Part shown: positions 12,498 to 20,132 of the stretch, in pieces
Numbering within the stretch: position 1 is the stretch's first letter
How the letters are laid out: each line of letters begins with the position of its first letter
From: an archaeon
GTDB lineage: Archaea; Thermoproteota; Nitrososphaeria; Nitrososphaerales; Gagatemarchaeaceae
Direction: 5' to 3'
Assembly (NCBI GenBank): GCA_902812495.1
Contig: CADDZR010000005.1
Span: forward strand, 1-64,000
Length of the DNA: 64,000 bases
Position numbers and translations under genes: made by a program
Notes under the pieces: generated by a model
What the model saw: only the letters and a program-made list of their open reading frames with translations
What the model was told of the DNA's origin: nothing
The model's database searches: none

Positions 12498-12953
12498 ATG
12501 AAAAAAATCTTGGTATTATTTTTAGCCTTGGCGCTCTTACCGGCTCTGGCACTCTCCCAGAACCCTCAAACAGTCACAGTAACGATAGTTAACGGAGCGC
12601 GCATCCAGTCAAATGCACCCGGCTTCTTCCCCCAGAACGTCACTGTGGTTATAGGTGTAAACAATACTGTCGTATGGTTTAACAATGACACGACAGTGCA
12701 CACTGTTACTTCAAACAGCAAGTTATTCGACAACACACTTAAGCCTGGAAACAGCACACAGTACACCTTTACAAGTCCTGGAGTATACCCTTACCATTGC
12801 ACTATTCATAACTGGATGGTTGGTTACGTAATAGTAAAACAGGTAACCCAACCAAATAACACCGCTTATCTTGTAGCAGGTGTTGTAATAGCAGCTATAA
12901 TAGTTATTGCTGCTGCCTTCTTTGCTTTAAGAAGAAGGAAGAAGACCGGCTAG
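12498..12953 (+). CDS. membrane-anchored type I (blue) copper protein, plastocyanin-like
   Basis: 151 residues: signal peptide (KKILVLFLALALLPALALSQ, cleavage near residue 20), one cupredoxin domain, a C-terminal membrane helix (about residues 123-142) and a basic RRRKK tail. The copper ligands are visible: His in TTVHTVTS, then Cys, His and Met in YPYHCTIHNWMVG, the canonical C-x(n)-H-x(n)-M loop. It would carry electrons on the outer face of the membrane. Thaumarchaeota encode many such proteins. The C-terminus overlaps the convergent TGS-domain gene by 27 nt. Confidence 0.9.
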   Translation: MKKILVLFLALALLPALALSQNPQTVTVTIVNGARIQSNAPGFFPQNVTVVIGVNNTVVWFNNDTTVHTVTSNSKLFDNTLKPGNSTQYTFTSPGVYPYHCTIHNWMVGYVIVKQVTQPNNTAYLVAGVVIAAIIVIAAAFFALRRRKKTG

Positions 12954-14006
12954 CCTTGTATGAACTTCAACTACATCCATGTCTTTGAGGACGAAATCTC
13001 TTCCAACCCTCTCACCAGAGTACTCCCCATGCCTCCATATCCTTGCATAACCGAATTCTAAAGCAAGCTCCTTGTGTATTTCTCTGGCTAGGTCAAGAGC
13101 CGTCGATCCTTGCTTCATCAGTATTGGCTTCTGCGCGATACCCTCTGTCGGGTCTCTCGTGAAGATTCTCATATAACCGAGTGAGTTTACTATACACTCC
13201 AAAAGCGTATGTCTGTCAGCCGAGTCTATGTACTCTATAGGAAGCTCAGAGCTTGCAGCCTCTTTAAATGCAAGGCATGTCTTGAATGTCTTCTGGAATA
13301 TTGCAGCTTCAAGGTCGTCGAGGCTTGCCTTGTTACCTATGAATACAACAGCATTCTTTATTCCGTAGCTCGATAAAAGCTGCCTCGCATCTCTCTCTAT
13401 CTCCTTCCTCGCAACTATCCTGATGCCGCCAGAGCTCGATGGTTCAAGGGAGACAAAGGATTCCCTGGAGGATAAGTGTATGTTGTTATCCTCGAGCCAC
13501 TCTGCTATCTCCTTTATCGATGCGTTGTCTCCAAGCAGAATTACGCCGTCAGCATTTCTTACTATGGATGAGAGCATTCTCTGCTTCTGCTCGGACATCG
13601 AAACACTGTATGGCACAAGCACAGCCTGGACTGACGTTCCCTCTGAGGTTATTGTCGATACACATGGTCTCTCGAGAACCTCATACTTTGAGAAGAACCT
13701 TCCAAGATACTTGGAGCTGAAATCCGAGAGAATCTCTGGCATGCCTATAACGGCAACCTGAAGTTCTTCCTTCTTGACGGACCACTTTAGCTGTGACGAA
13801 CCTGTCTTCTTTTTCTTTGCCTTCTCTATTTTCTCCTCAAGGGAGGATATCTGTTTCTTTATAGCTACCTCCAGCTTTTCCGTCGATTTGTGCTTCGGAA
13901 AGCTTGAGTAGAACTCCCTAAGTAGCTGCAGTTTCTTCTCCGGGTCTCTTTCAGCTATAGCCTTTGCCCATATAGCCTTCGACTTTTCAGGAAGGTTTGT
14001 CGGCAT
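12927..14006 (-). CDS. TGS-domain protein with degenerate GTPase domain
   Basis: 359 residues. The N-terminus (MPTNLPEKSKAIWAKAIAER, followed by a basic coiled coil to about residue 70) and C-terminal TGS domain (LMKQGSTALDLAREIHKELA to DVVEVHTR) follow the plan of DRG/Obg-like GTPases. The G1 position (LQVAVIGMPEILSDFSSKYL) lacks the GxxxxGK[S/T] P-loop, and no DxxG or NKxD is evident, so GTP hydrolysis is unlikely. A ribosome-associated role is possible, since TGS domains bind RNA or ribosomes. Convergent with the copper protein. Confidence 0.75.
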   Translation of the reverse strand: MPTNLPEKSKAIWAKAIAERDPEKKLQLLREFYSSFPKHKSTEKLEVAIKKQISSLEEKIEKAKKKKTGSSQLKWSVKKEELQVAVIGMPEILSDFSSKYLGRFFSKYEVLERPCVSTITSEGTSVQAVLVPYSVSMSEQKQRMLSSIVRNADGVILLGDNASIKEIAEWLEDNNIHLSSRESFVSLEPSSSGGIRIVARKEIERDARQLLSSYGIKNAVVFIGNKASLDDLEAAIFQKTFKTCLAFKEAASSELPIEYIDSADRHTLLECIVNSLGYMRIFTRDPTEGIAQKPILMKQGSTALDLAREIHKELALEFGYARIWRHGEYSGERVGRDFVLKDMDVVEVHTRLAGLLPSS

Positions 14007-14039: not shown

Positions 14040-14414
14040 TCACGATATCTTGCTTTCTATTTCTTTCTGGAGCTTCCTTATCTCCCTTATCTGAGACATC
14101 AGCCTCCTGACAAAGATAAGGTCACTTATCGCAACGTAGGCCCAAGCAGAAGCAAAGCCTATTAGTATCAGCCCGAAGATTACAAGAGCAGGTTCCGTCA
14201 GGTTAACTTCCTGCACCTTCTGTCCCAGATAGTAAGGAAGGATGAAAAGCTGGAAGATGTAGTTAACAAGTAAGAAAGATGAGACAAGAAGCGTTACCAG
14301 AGACAGGAATCTCAGCCTAAGGCTACCTTTCTCTATGTGCTGGATAAACTCCTCGTGTAGCTCAAGTGCCATGACACCTGGATGCCTCTCCTCCATAAGC
14401 ATTACATCAAGCAA
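14040..14414 (-). CDS. two-helix membrane protein of unknown function
   Basis: 124 residues with two hydrophobic helices (about 36-60 and 75-97) and a charged C-terminal helix (RRLMSQIREIRKLQKEIES) suited to a coiled coil. No known domain. Same strand as, and between, the TGS gene and a small wHTH gene, with short gaps, so the three may form a unit. Function unknown. Confidence 0.6.
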   Translation of the reverse strand: MLDVMLMEERHPGVMALELHEEFIQHIEKGSLRLRFLSLVTLLVSSFLLVNYIFQLFILPYYLGQKVQEVNLTEPALVIFGLILIGFASAWAYVAISDLIFVRRLMSQIREIRKLQKEIESKIS

Positions 14415-14446
14415 GAGGTTTAAAACGGTAACTCACTTTCCGTGAA

Positions 14447-14707
14447 TCATGGCCTGAGCTTTGAGAGTATCTCCTCTATTTCATGCAGGAGCTTCAGGCC
14501 CTCTGGTGTGATTGAATAGCTAAGCCTGCCCTCAGAAACTTCTGATTTAACAAGCCCTTTCGATAGAAGCGGGGATATGTATGCTTCAAGCCTGTCGTAC
14601 GGTATGTTGCAGAGCCTCGAGAGCCTTGTGGGTCCTGTTGGCCCGTCGTGTAGTACTCTGAGTATCTCTGCCCTTATCAGTATGTCTGACCTTTTCTGCA
14701 AACACAT
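14447..14707 (-). CDS. small winged-helix DNA-binding protein
   Basis: 86 residues forming little more than one winged helix: LIRAEILRVLHDGPTGPTRL, CNIPYDRLEAYISPLLSKGL, then a wing (EVSEGRLSYSITPEGLKLL). This is the single-domain PadR/ArsR-like or archaeal wHTH type, with no sensor domain. Divergent from the HerA-like gene, with 90 nt between, so it is placed to regulate that cluster or itself. Confidence 0.7.
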   Translation of the reverse strand: MCLQKRSDILIRAEILRVLHDGPTGPTRLSRLCNIPYDRLEAYISPLLSKGLVKSEVSEGRLSYSITPEGLKLLHEIEEILSKLRP

Positions 14708-14797
14708 GGGTCTATTGTTTACCTTATAATAAAACTCACAATAGGAGAGCTCATCAAGTGCGTCAGGTAAATATCTTGACTATTGTATTTTGGATAC

Positions 14798-15970
14798 ATG
14801 CAGTATTTAATTGGAACTGAAATTTCAGGGAAGCATGTATGTCTTGACGAGACAGACCTAGCTGAATCTGTACTCTTCTGTGGCAAGAATGCATCGCTCG
14901 CAGCATGCTGGCTTGCACTCGAATGCTCCAGAAAAGATAGGAAAATGGTTGTTGTTGACCTCTCAGGTATTGCTACAAATACGATATCAGGATATCTCAG
15001 GACAGTAGATGTTGTCTCTTTCATACCCGACGTCCTGAAAATACCAGAGGGGAGAATAGAATGCGCATCCTGTGTTTCATCACTTCTCTCAAACGTGCTC
15101 TCGCTTCCAAGGAATCAGAGGCTTATACTTCGCTCAGCAATATTACAGATTGCAAGAGAAAACGGATACGTAACACCAAGTTCAATCTTTGATACAGTCG
15201 ACCTCGTCGACGGTTTTAAGGCAACTGAAAAGGAAGAGGTTGAGGGAAAGGTTGCTACCTTTGGCCAGATAGAGATCTTTTCAGGAGAGGCTTCTCTGGA
15301 CAGCATTGTCGAGAGGTCATGCATTGTTTCGTTCTCTTCTTTAAACAATCCGCACCTTGAAGATTTTCTAGCATGTATGCTTACTTCAAGGGTTGCAATG
15401 ATATTACATGAAGTTCCTGATTCTGTTGTATTCATAACGGGAGCCGAGAGGCTGCTCGATTTTTTCAGCCCCGCGAGAGACATTTTCTTTGAGAGATACT
15501 TCCTTTCAGGAATGCACGGCAAGGTGTTGGCTACTTCATGGAAGAACTACCAGCAGCATTCATGGAAAGCATTCGTGGAAATCTCTGATTCTGAACTACC
15601 TCTTGGCTCCCTTTTGTTTGAGATTGGAGGAAGAACTACTTCCTATCCCATCTACGCAATCATACCAGAAAGGAAGGTAACAACGCCCGAGAGATTGATT
15701 GTCGAGAAAGTGCATGAAGGGAATATCGTGCACGAAATACTGAAGGCTGTATCCTCCAGCAGCACTGCAACAAGAGAATCTATAGTCAGCTGGTTATCTG
15801 CTGAATACCCAAGGGAATTGGTTGTTCAGGAGCTGGACAGGCTCGTTTCAGAGAGATTTCTTGTTTTAACAAGGCTTGATGAAAGGGGAAAGTTACTAAC
15901 ACTAAAGCTTACGGAACTGGGAAAGAAAGAGCTCGAGGAGATGGAGGGTAATGGAGAGAATAAGGACTGA
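14798..15970 (+). CDS. HerA/VirB4-like P-loop protein with degenerate nucleotide site and C-terminal winged helix
   Basis: 390 residues from ATG 14798 (MQYLIGTEISGKHV); ATG 14783 is also possible. The order of blocks recalls HerA/FtsK-type ATPases: a strand-loop (SVLFCGKNASLAACWLA) where the P-loop should be, VVVDLSG, a helical block starting RLILRSAILQIAREN, IVSFSSLNNPHLEDFLACML, then VVFITGAERLLDFF where HerA has a DEAH/DEAR-type Walker B. The P-loop lacks GKS/T and the Walker B acidic pair is missing, so catalysis is unlikely. The last 80 residues form a winged helix. Overlaps the RadA-like gene by 20 nt. Confidence 0.6.
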   Translation: MQYLIGTEISGKHVCLDETDLAESVLFCGKNASLAACWLALECSRKDRKMVVVDLSGIATNTISGYLRTVDVVSFIPDVLKIPEGRIECASCVSSLLSNVLSLPRNQRLILRSAILQIARENGYVTPSSIFDTVDLVDGFKATEKEEVEGKVATFGQIEIFSGEASLDSIVERSCIVSFSSLNNPHLEDFLACMLTSRVAMILHEVPDSVVFITGAERLLDFFSPARDIFFERYFLSGMHGKVLATSWKNYQQHSWKAFVEISDSELPLGSLLFEIGGRTTSYPIYAIIPERKVTTPERLIVEKVHEGNIVHEILKAVSSSSTATRESIVSWLSAEYPRELVVQELDRLVSERFLVLTRLDERGKLLTLKLTELGKKELEEMEGNGENKD

Positions 15971-16943
15971 AGTGGAAGCACTAGATATCATGACAGAAGG
16001 AGGGTTACCTCGCGGCACAATAACACAGGTCTTTGGTGAAAAAGCGCTTGGAAAGAGTATTATTTCGCTTCAGGTTGCACACAGGGCAGCTATTGAGGGA
16101 TGCTCAGCAATAATAATAGATACTGAGCAGTCATACACTAGCTACCTGTTACCCTACTGGAAGGAGAGGCTTGAGAAGAGGTTTTCAAAGGAGTTCAAGA
16201 TAAGTAGGGCATACTTAAAGCACGAACAAGGCAAGAAGAAGGGTATCTCAAGAAGCCAGGTTGTCTCAGCAATTGCTGGAACAGTGAAACAGCTTGGCCT
16301 GAACACCTCTGAGTCTGAGATAGGAGAGATAGCAAACATGCTTCTCAGCTCTGTTTCTGTCGAGGTTGAGGAGAGTGGGAACTCATTAATACTCATCGAA
16401 GTTCCAGATATAACTGAGCTGCTTGCACTTCACGGCTTTGACTGCTACATAACAGTGAGCGAGGCAGGTAGAGTTGAAATAAGGCTCAAAAAACCGCCTT
16501 CAATACCATCACCGCTCCAGGACCTTGTTGAGAGGGCAGGTGCATCGCTCATAGTTTATGACTCGATCTCTGCTCCTCTCAAGTCTGTATTTGCAGGAAC
16601 AGCGGACCTTCCTGCAAGGAGTTCAAGTCTCTCAATGCTACTTACAACAGCGCAGAGGCTCTGTTCGAAGTACGGGTTGGCAGTGCTCGCTTTAAGCCAT
16701 GTGACAATCAACCCGATACAGGCTTGGGATAGAAGACCCTTCGGAGGCGTAATACTTGGGCACGAAGCAAAGTTCTCTTTTGAGCTGACAAAACACGGGT
16801 CAAAAAGGTCGGAAGATGCAGAATGTGTGAATCCAGATAAGGATGACAAAAAGTCAAGGGTAATCTGGGCTCAGAGGCACCCTGCAATAGAAGACTACTC
16901 AAGGTTTGGCTATTTTTCTATAGATGAGCTAGGTGTTCACTGA
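15951..16943 (+). CDS. RadA/RecA-superfamily ATPase paralog
   Basis: 330 residues. Walker A GEKALGKS is intact near residues 29-36, followed by AIIIDTEQSYTSYLL (the RecA-family I-D-T-E strand) and Walker B ASLIVYDSISAPL. Between the Walker motifs is an insert of about 100 residues not found in RadA. The C-terminus (FGGVILGHEAKFSFELTK then IWAQRHPAIEDYSRFGYFSI) follows the RecA core L2-like order. No N-terminal helix-hairpin-helix, so it is a RadB-like or diverged RadA paralog rather than the recombinase itself. Overlaps the HerA-like gene and is followed directly by the membrane-protein gene. Confidence 0.8.
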   Translation: MERIRTEVEALDIMTEGGLPRGTITQVFGEKALGKSIISLQVAHRAAIEGCSAIIIDTEQSYTSYLLPYWKERLEKRFSKEFKISRAYLKHEQGKKKGISRSQVVSAIAGTVKQLGLNTSESEIGEIANMLLSSVSVEVEESGNSLILIEVPDITELLALHGFDCYITVSEAGRVEIRLKKPPSIPSPLQDLVERAGASLIVYDSISAPLKSVFAGTADLPARSSSLSMLLTTAQRLCSKYGLAVLALSHVTINPIQAWDRRPFGGVILGHEAKFSFELTKHGSKRSEDAECVNPDKDDKKSRVIWAQRHPAIEDYSRFGYFSIDELGVH

Positions 16944-17885
16944 TTGAGGTACAGGGTGCTTGCCTCTGTACTACTTTTAATTTTGCTCATCCTCGGCATG
17001 TGGCCCTTAGCTCTCCTCTGTTTTCTTTACACTGCCTACCCACTTTTGAGAAGGATACCTAAAATTAGCCTGAGGTACTCTTTCAGTATTCTCATGCTTC
17101 TTCTCTTTACAGTATCAGCATTTTACGGAGGAAGAGTATCATCTATCCTTTTCCTTGCTTTGGCTGTAGTACCATTTGCCACTTACGTGGCTGGTAGGGA
17201 GGTTGTTGAAGAGAAGGATTCATTCCTAGTTAGAGGAAGGTTTGTCCCGCTTACATGGTACGGAGTTGCAAAGGTCAAATTTTCTTCACAGAGGTATGCC
17301 GAGTGTACAAGTCTTATGCCCGATGTTTCGTTCTTTGTAATCTGGAGAGGTAGCCTTTACGCTTTCTTTTCATGCTTTTCTTTTGGAAGGAAGGCCGCTG
17401 AGAAAAAGATACTGGATAAGATGGAAAATGCCCTTGACACAGTAATCCGTAGGGGTGCGTACCTGTTTCCTCTTTGCCCCTCCTCTTTTTCCGAGATACT
17501 GCGCTCTAGGCATATACGAGAGAAATCTAAAGGATACATGATAGGTGATGTAATTTCTTTCAAAAAAAGTGGAAATACTGTAACATACATTTCATTTTAT
17601 AAGAGATCTGAAGGGCCGATGATGGTTCCATACCCTAAAGTTGGCACAACGCAACCAGTTCAGGAAGTGCTTGCGTCTCTGGAAGATCCAGGCATGCCTG
17701 ATGGGGAGCTATCCCTACTTCTTGCAACACTAGCTGCCTTGAGGTCTGGCTTGCTGGACAGCATAAAGAAAGAAAAAGTAGAAGGGAACAAGGTTAATGT
17801 TCGTGTACTTTCTTCACCGAGTATCGAGATGGACGAGAAGCAATTCGACGCAATACTTTCAGTCTATGCAGGGATTAAGAGATAA
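16944..17885 (+). CDS. membrane protein of the HerA-like/RadA-like cluster, unknown function
   Basis: 313 residues starting TTG immediately after the RadA-like stop codon, so translationally coupled. Three to four hydrophobic segments cover residues about 5-30, 45-62 and 65-85; the remaining 220 residues are soluble, probably cytoplasmic, with mixed alpha/beta character. No recognised domain or catalytic motif. Its tight coupling to two ATPase-like genes suggests a shared function at the membrane, which is inference only. Confidence 0.65.
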   Translation: MRYRVLASVLLLILLILGMWPLALLCFLYTAYPLLRRIPKISLRYSFSILMLLLFTVSAFYGGRVSSILFLALAVVPFATYVAGREVVEEKDSFLVRGRFVPLTWYGVAKVKFSSQRYAECTSLMPDVSFFVIWRGSLYAFFSCFSFGRKAAEKKILDKMENALDTVIRRGAYLFPLCPSSFSEILRSRHIREKSKGYMIGDVISFKKSGNTVTYISFYKRSEGPMMVPYPKVGTTQPVQEVLASLEDPGMPDGELSLLLATLAALRSGLLDSIKKEKVEGNKVNVRVLSSPSIEMDEKQFDAILSVYAGIKR

Positions 17886-19316: not shown

Positions 19317-20132
19317 ATGGAAGGAAGCGACGAAGGCTATACATTTCAGGACCCCTATAAGAAGTACAAGCTGGAGCTAAGGATTATTCCGGTTGATAAG
19401 CTTCAAGTTGTGAAACATCAGAGAAAGCCTAGTGAAGCGCACGTTAAGCATCTTGTATCTTCGATAGAAAGGATAGGTTTCCTTGTGCCTGTCATAGCTG
19501 TGCAGAAGCATGGAGGGGATGGGTACATGATAATCGACGGGCAGCACAGGTTTCTTGCTGCAAAGAAGCTCGGTATATCTGAACTTCCTGTTATCGTCGT
19601 TCCGGACAATCTTGCGGAAAAGATGATGAACTTTAACATAGAGAAAGAGCTGAACATAAGGGAGAAGGCACAAGTTGCCCTTGCAATATACAGGGAATAC
19701 CTGGAGACAAGGCCAGAAATGGAAGAGGCTGATGCTCTCCTAGTTGACTCGATAGAACAAGCATACTATGTTACTCTTGGCATTGGGTACGAAAAGGCTG
19801 AAAGGCTTACCGGCAGTGCTTTCGAGCCAATCCTGAAGAAATGCGATGGGTTCCTTGCACTGAAGCTAAAGGAGGCTGCGATTGAAAGGCAGGCTAGAGC
19901 CGAGAAGATTATAGAGGCAAACAATCACGTCAGGTCGATAGCTGACAAGATAAAGCAAATGGGTAGATGGCATCCCTTTGTATACCAGCAGATAATATCT
20001 GCCTCTAACCCGTTCAAGAGGAAGAGGAAGGTTGAAGAAGATTTCAACACAGCCATAAACAGGATGATAGAAAGGCTGAAGGAGATAGAGAACAAGCCGG
20101 AACAAATACTAAAAGAGTCTGTGGAAATATAG
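19317..20132 (+). CDS. ParB/sulfiredoxin-domain protein
   Basis: 271 residues. A ParB N-terminal domain covers about residues 20-120: IIPVDKLQVVKHQRKPSE, SSIERIGFLVPVIAV, and the catalytic-loop motif DGQHRFLAAKKLG. In this fold the loop binds CTP or ATP in ParB, SerK and Srx relatives. The C-terminal half is helical and basic (KRKRKVEEDF) and lacks a recognisable ParB HTH. No ParA ATPase is adjacent, so a standard plasmid-type partition role is not supported; a nucleoid, kinase or regulator function is possible. Monocistronic. Confidence 0.8.
   Translation: MEGSDEGYTFQDPYKKYKLELRIIPVDKLQVVKHQRKPSEAHVKHLVSSIERIGFLVPVIAVQKHGGDGYMIIDGQHRFLAAKKLGISELPVIVVPDNLAEKMMNFNIEKELNIREKAQVALAIYREYLETRPEMEEADALLVDSIEQAYYVTLGIGYEKAERLTGSAFEPILKKCDGFLALKLKEAAIERQARAEKIIEANNHVRSIADKIKQMGRWHPFVYQQIISASNPFKRKRKVEEDFNTAINRMIERLKEIENKPEQILKESVEI

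Follow-up and report, generated by a model that had tools for sequence, protein, structure and literature searches.

A conserved five-gene set of soil archaea with a predicted VirB4-fold pseudo-ATPase and a Rad51-family ATPase, candidate for a DNA-handling apparatus at the membrane

Can an ATPase, a pseudo-ATPase scaffold and a membrane anchor encoded side by side in an archaeal genome form a machine that handles or segregates DNA at the membrane? The question was raised by the initial annotation of three genes in a 64,000-nucleotide stretch of archaeal DNA (the window) and is approached here by computational analysis of the encoded proteins, their promoter and their relatives.

Gene layout and predicted proteins

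The three genes lie on the plus strand and encode P1 (14798–15970; 390 aa), P2 (15951–16943; 330 aa) and P3 (16944–17885; 313 aa). The open reading frame calls agree with the arrangement first described, P1 and P2 overlapping by 20 nt and the TTG start of P3 following immediately on the P2 stop. The conserved unit is larger and comprises five genes at 14040–17885, the other two being on the minus strand: P4 (14447–14707), an 86-aa winged helix-turn-helix (wHTH) protein (Pfam HTH_45, 1.3e-13) divergent from P1, and behind it P5 (14040–14414), read from a TTG start with an internal ATG possible, a small protein with two transmembrane (TM) helices and a charged cytoplasmic tail by hydropathy. All five genes are under purifying selection. 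Outside the unit, a protein encoded at 12927–14006 has a C-terminal TGS domain (6.6e-11) and no recognisable GTPase domain, and a phosphoesterase-family (phospholipase C-like) gene lies directly downstream of P3 (17972–19273; Pfam 6.4e-72).

P1 has no matching family in Pfam, NCBIfam, PADLOC or PHROGs. An AlphaFold2 model built from 30 relatives (pLDDT 84.3, pTM 0.74) was matched by Foldseek to VirB4 of Thermoanaerobacter (4ag5; 1.6e-6), to DndH-C (2.3e-6), and to TrwK/VirB4 and SIR2/HerA structures, and the top match in a viral structure library was likewise a HerA-like protein. Profile comparison with archaeal HerA-like proteins by hhalign gave a probability of 94.6% (E 6.5e-8), the segment aligned to the P-loop being a shortened loop devoid of GKS/T. 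Not one of the 30 aligned family members has the P-loop signature at the corresponding position, and all 30 have another residue in place of the canonical Walker B aspartate; the one G[KR][ST] string that occurs within residues 1–70 does not lie at the P-loop site. Since the P-loop is gone from all 30 relatives and also from the P1 homologs of two other families, the loss of the ATP site is old, and dN/dS values of 0.07–0.23 in close pairs indicate that the protein is nevertheless maintained. P1 is thus predicted from its model to be a fold relative of the HerA/VirB4/FtsK superfamily and not an active motor. The HerA/VirB4-type assignment with replaced P-loop and Walker B residues, for which fold prediction had been named beforehand as the check, is borne out, as is the proposed C-terminal winged helix, that end of the model matching MarR/PadR winged helices in Foldseek.

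P2 matches Pfam Rad51 at 8.5e-14 (51.8 bits, cut-off 22), and the closest PDB relatives of its family profile are RecA and Rad51/RadA. It scores 58.4 bits against the RadA equivalog model, under the cut-off of 259, and a canonical RadA is also encoded in the genome that carries P2. Alignment with this RadA revealed that P2 retains the DTE catalytic glutamate, an L1 region as long as that of RadA and, beyond L2, the segment containing GG. It has His in place of the Gln of the TNQV segment and is missing the N-terminal HhH domain, and DTEQSY is followed by an insert some 85 residues long. The Walker A motif is intact (GEKALGKS, fitting GxxxxGKS). P2 is also the most constrained of the five proteins, family members being about 50% identical to the protein of the window, with dN/dS of 0.03–0.22. 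Judged from these sequence features, P2 is an uncharacterised branch of the Rad51 family. The earlier description as a RadA paralog with an intact P-loop and an insert stands, the insert being about 85 residues long where roughly 100 had been given.

P3, whose orthologs follow P2, is predicted to consist of four TM helices and an alpha/beta domain with a conserved C-terminal motif (AlphaFold2 pLDDT 85). It matches no described family, its fold has no PDB match at 1e-3, and structure comparison established no fold identity; the soluble domain reached E 1.0 against TrwK/VirB4, which is not significant. Two genomes gave a weak match to P3 that proved to be TadC-like or unrelated. P3 is accordingly the uncharacterised membrane protein that it had been called, and the combination of ATPase, pseudo-ATPase scaffold and membrane anchor corresponds to the anatomy of P2, P1 and P3, respectively.

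Conservation and distribution

Conserved adjacency in related genomes had also been set as a check beforehand, and it was found in dozens of genomes and across families. The main sample covered 37 genomes of f1, the archaeal family of the window, and yielded 35 loci including extra copies in two metagenome-assembled genomes (MAGs); all genomes compared are MAGs, some with more than 5% contamination. MAGs SubAcS15-15, SubAcS15-57 and AcS1-13, represented among these loci, stem from a study of Gagatemarchaeaceae (Group I.1c; PMC10640624). P1 is present in 32 of the 37 genomes and a close P2 in about 30. Among the 35 loci P5 occurs in 34, P4 in 33, P1 in 34, P2 in 33 and P3 in 28, the missing genes mostly coinciding with contig ends, and P1-P2-P3 are collinear wherever contigs permit. 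The set is mostly single-copy and stable in position, and no other neighbour is conserved beside it across f1. P1 and P2 are missing from five members (G013, G014, G015, G027 and G035), and as two of the five are 96% complete, real losses are possible. One MAG contains a third copy (L060, G033:C66) in which P1 is broken and P2 is interrupted by a stop, either a decaying paralog or a binning artefact.

Among 400 genomes of the class, P2 was found outside f1 in ten genomes of families f18, f20 and f24, and weakly in f19; P1 adjoins P2 also in f18 and f20, and in f18 the set is located amid core genes. P2 was not found in the sampled ammonia-oxidiser-like families of the order, a label based on size and relatedness, and in a phylum-wide sample it occurred only in f1 members. 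A mobile or viral origin was dismissed, P2 relatives being absent from viral contigs and plasmids. The f19 locus (L142:5912-9808) encodes a 419-aa protein of P1-like layout, overlapped over 20 nt by the P2 relative, together with a TM protein of 123 aa and a further protein (442 aa) similar by eye to a VirB4 N-domain; profile comparison of the 419-aa protein with P1 was not significant.

Operator, regulator and accessory module

The divergent P4-P1 promoter (14708–14797) contains an operator-like stretch at about 14734–14766 (ACTCACAATAGGAGAGCTCATCAAGTGCGTCAG) and a TATA-like stretch at about 14767–14775, before P1. The element GTGCGTCAG is common to this promoter in the window and in relatives. 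Across 32 alignable loci the intergenic region is conserved, with a direct repeat just upstream of the P1 TATA box: a repeat at lag 13 with a score of at least 7/9 occurs in 19 of the 32 loci against 0.2 expected, and no other lag displays a comparable excess. The window holds a divergent version, with similar halves at lag 15, not 13. Operator copy number changes by 13-bp steps, and where unrelated genes lie between P4 and P1 the operator remains beside P1. A scan of 16 genomes for the double operator, with the reversed pattern as control, retrieved P1 promoters, the promoter of a gene termed M in G012 and one match inside a coding sequence (G029:C131:2467), treated as a probable chance match; the reversed control gave 0.

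Operator divergence tracks the P4 sequence (rho 0.78; partial 0.73 given P2 and 0.70 given P1), and the P4 helix correlates with the operator (Mantel p 0.002); as P4 and operator distances share phylogeny, the correlation is supportive and not proof. The winged helix of P1 was rejected as the operator binder, its partial correlation being about zero (-0.04) once P1 distance was removed. P4 is therefore probably, on these sequence comparisons, a dedicated regulator of the P1 promoter acting via the tandem operator. The initial annotation rightly noted a small divergent wHTH gene but treated it as a bystander, a view at odds with its near-constant adjacency and its co-variation with the operator. 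An Sso10a-like match of P4 falls below cut-off. Three f20 loci (L133, L134 and L135), devoid of P4, have another conserved pair, TTAGCTAA ... TTCGAA, 50–70 nt upstream of P1, suggesting another regulator in that family.

The gene M links the set to a further module. In G012, where its promoter carries the double operator, M is a 901-aa protein; it carries an intact HerA/VirB4-type ATPase and a TM region like that of P3 (1e-18 in single-sequence comparison, 3e-7 by profile). M is followed by N, most members of which have a PD-(D/E)xK-like motif at the C-terminus in an alignment read by eye, degenerate or lost in 2 of 7 members; N has no Pfam match to NurA. A small protein, O (about 190 aa, with conserved W, D and Y positions), often comes after N (L240, L242, L236, L238 and L241) and matches no family. 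P1-P2-P3-M-N are contiguous on one strand in G033 and in G031, where M is split into two frames. A second divergon in G007 combines M and N with paralogs of P4 and P5 and a remnant of P1, and a truncated M in G020 is adjoined by P4/P5 paralogs. Upstream of M in G036 and of the M operon in G007 lie operator-like repeats, with weaker ones before M in G018. M is thus co-regulated with or linked to the core set through a common operator, P4/P5 paralogs or operon linkage. A full-length or nearly full-length M occurs in about 9 of 36 relatives, and M is not in the window's genome; the whole module is missing from most family members, the window's genome included, so the core P1–P5 must do something without it.

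Candidate functions and known systems

The reading that we tentatively place first, at a little short of an even chance, is a membrane-tethered DNA-handling apparatus of the HerA/VirB4 kind, with P1 as scaffold and P2 as ATPase. P3 would anchor this chromosomally encoded, type IV secretion- or Ced-like apparatus in the membrane; P1, its usual ATP site unusable, would serve as a VirB4-fold scaffold and may touch DNA via its winged helix; and P2, derived from RadA and keeping Rad51-type DNA-loop regions, would supply ATP-driven DNA binding or movement. The tandem operator would let P4 control the P1-P2-P3 promoter, P5 would be a small membrane accessory, and the intact ATPase M, its partner N and the small protein O would work with the set in roughly one family genome in four. 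The folds, the loss of the ATP site in P1 and its retention in P2, the gene linkage, the operator, its co-variation with P4 and the regulation shared with M are computational results; that the products assemble into a single complex, that P2 has DNA as its target and that the membrane is where DNA is moved or processed is what we infer. Counting against the reading, the conserved neighbourhood yielded no channel or pilin gene, M-N-O is missing from most members, the soluble domain of P3 matches no fold that could be named, and the nuclease motif of N comes from reading an alignment. The DNA role first proposed is favoured by the DNA-loop region of P2, the operator and operon links to M and N, and the P3-like TM region of M. 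A wider claim, which we regard as possible but doubtful, is that the set represents a hitherto undescribed class of DNA machine at the membrane, with P1 as a VirB4-type protein turned permanently into an ATP-free scaffold and the RadA-derived P2 as its energy source; the machine would have its own wHTH regulator and tandem operator, be ancestral in part of Nitrososphaeria and be missing in the sampled ammonia oxidisers.

Among the alternatives, P2 could be a recombination mediator that aids RadA like RadB and the Rad51 paralogs, P1 providing a DNA scaffold and P3 a tether for the repair of incoming or damaged DNA. A Rad51-family core without the N-domain is the architecture of RadB, and a canonical RadA in the same genome would be there to be aided. 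However, P2 reaches 60.9 bits against the NCBIfam RadB model, under the cut-off of 172.4, and mediation leaves the obligate membrane gene and the link to a membrane HerA/VirB4 ATPase unexplained, so we consider this role unlikely.

HerA-nuclease pairs are frequent in defence, and the set could sense or degrade invading DNA at the membrane with M-N, a HerA-type ATPase and nuclease, as effector. Such a role accords with the patchy distribution of M-N-O and with matches of M to the PADLOC HerA and mad8 models (to 1.8e-11). Against it, P1–P5 match no PADLOC system convincingly (P4 gave weak matches to generic wHTH models only, and P2 reached mad8 at 0.036), and their mostly single-copy state, stable position and, in f18, location amid core genes, together with the absence of P2 from viral contigs and plasmids, render defence improbable.

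KaiC-like ATPases have been proposed as archaeal signalling hubs (Makarova 2017, as cited in PMC6393860), and P2 could be such a hub, controlling transcription via P1 and P4 with P3 and P5 as membrane sensors. Two wHTH domains and two membrane proteins in the set would suit a switch of this kind, as would a KaiC match of P2, which at 1.3e-7 is weaker than that to Rad51. The KaiC/ArlH-type reading of P2 was rejected because of its scores and DNA-loop anatomy, its profile being closest in the PDB to RecA and Rad51/RadA and its Rad51-type L1/L2 region being kept, and signalling leaves the VirB4 fold of P1 unexplained; we give it a slim chance. The other role suggested at the outset, that of segregating chromosomes or anchoring the nucleoid at the membrane, would fit the membrane anchor, the HerA/FtsK-superfamily fold, the DNA-binding domains and the stable chromosomal location, yet it found no specific support and is highly improbable: relatives do not conserve, in the vicinity of the set, the ParB-N-domain gene found two genes downstream in the window (19317–20132; Pfam 7.9e-10), and with no other gene conserved beside the set there is no linkage to known segregation genes.

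The archaeal family, abundant in soil and represented here by metagenomes alone, conserves no neighbourhood of these genes other than this set. If the membrane-tethered DNA-handling reading is true, a recombinase-family ATPase partners a dead VirB4-type protein at the membrane, which would offer a concrete entry to DNA exchange, DNA uptake or defence against DNA in Thaumarchaeota that do not oxidise ammonia; direct tests are possible by way of the operator and its probable regulator P4.

No described system of this composition was found, as the initial annotation had stated. Like the archaellum module ArlH-ArlI-ArlJ, the set puts a RecA-superfamily ATPase, P2, beside a membrane protein; unlike it, P2 scores 26 bits against the ArlH model (cut-off 215), and ArlI and ArlJ homologs are not in the set. 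P2 shares with RadA, RadB and the Rad51 paralogs the Walker A motif, catalytic Glu, L1 length and post-L2 GG segment, and differs from them in the absent HhH domain, the insert, the His for Gln and a fixed P1/P3 neighbourhood. M-N resembles HerA-NurA and HerA-nuclease pairs in that a HerA-type ATPase is joined by a protein probably of the PD-(D/E)xK kind, whereas M has a membrane region, no profile identifies N as NurA and the core P1-P2-P3 is without a recognisable nuclease. In type IV secretion and in the archaeal Ced and Ted systems of DNA exchange, the ATPases are VirB4, CedB-CedD and TedB (PMC9905601, PMC11868833); CedB and CedD have TM helices and share out the VirB4 N-domain between them (PMC11868833). 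In contrast to these systems, P1 lacks an ATP site, a RadA-family ATPase is involved, and the conserved neighbourhood holds no VirB6/CedA-like channel or VirB2/CedA1 pilin gene. Like them, P1 has the fold of the VirB4 C-domain and M is a membrane-anchored HerA/VirB4-type ATPase; M, with its intact ATPase, is no part of the core set and is linked to it or co-regulated with it in about a quarter of genomes.
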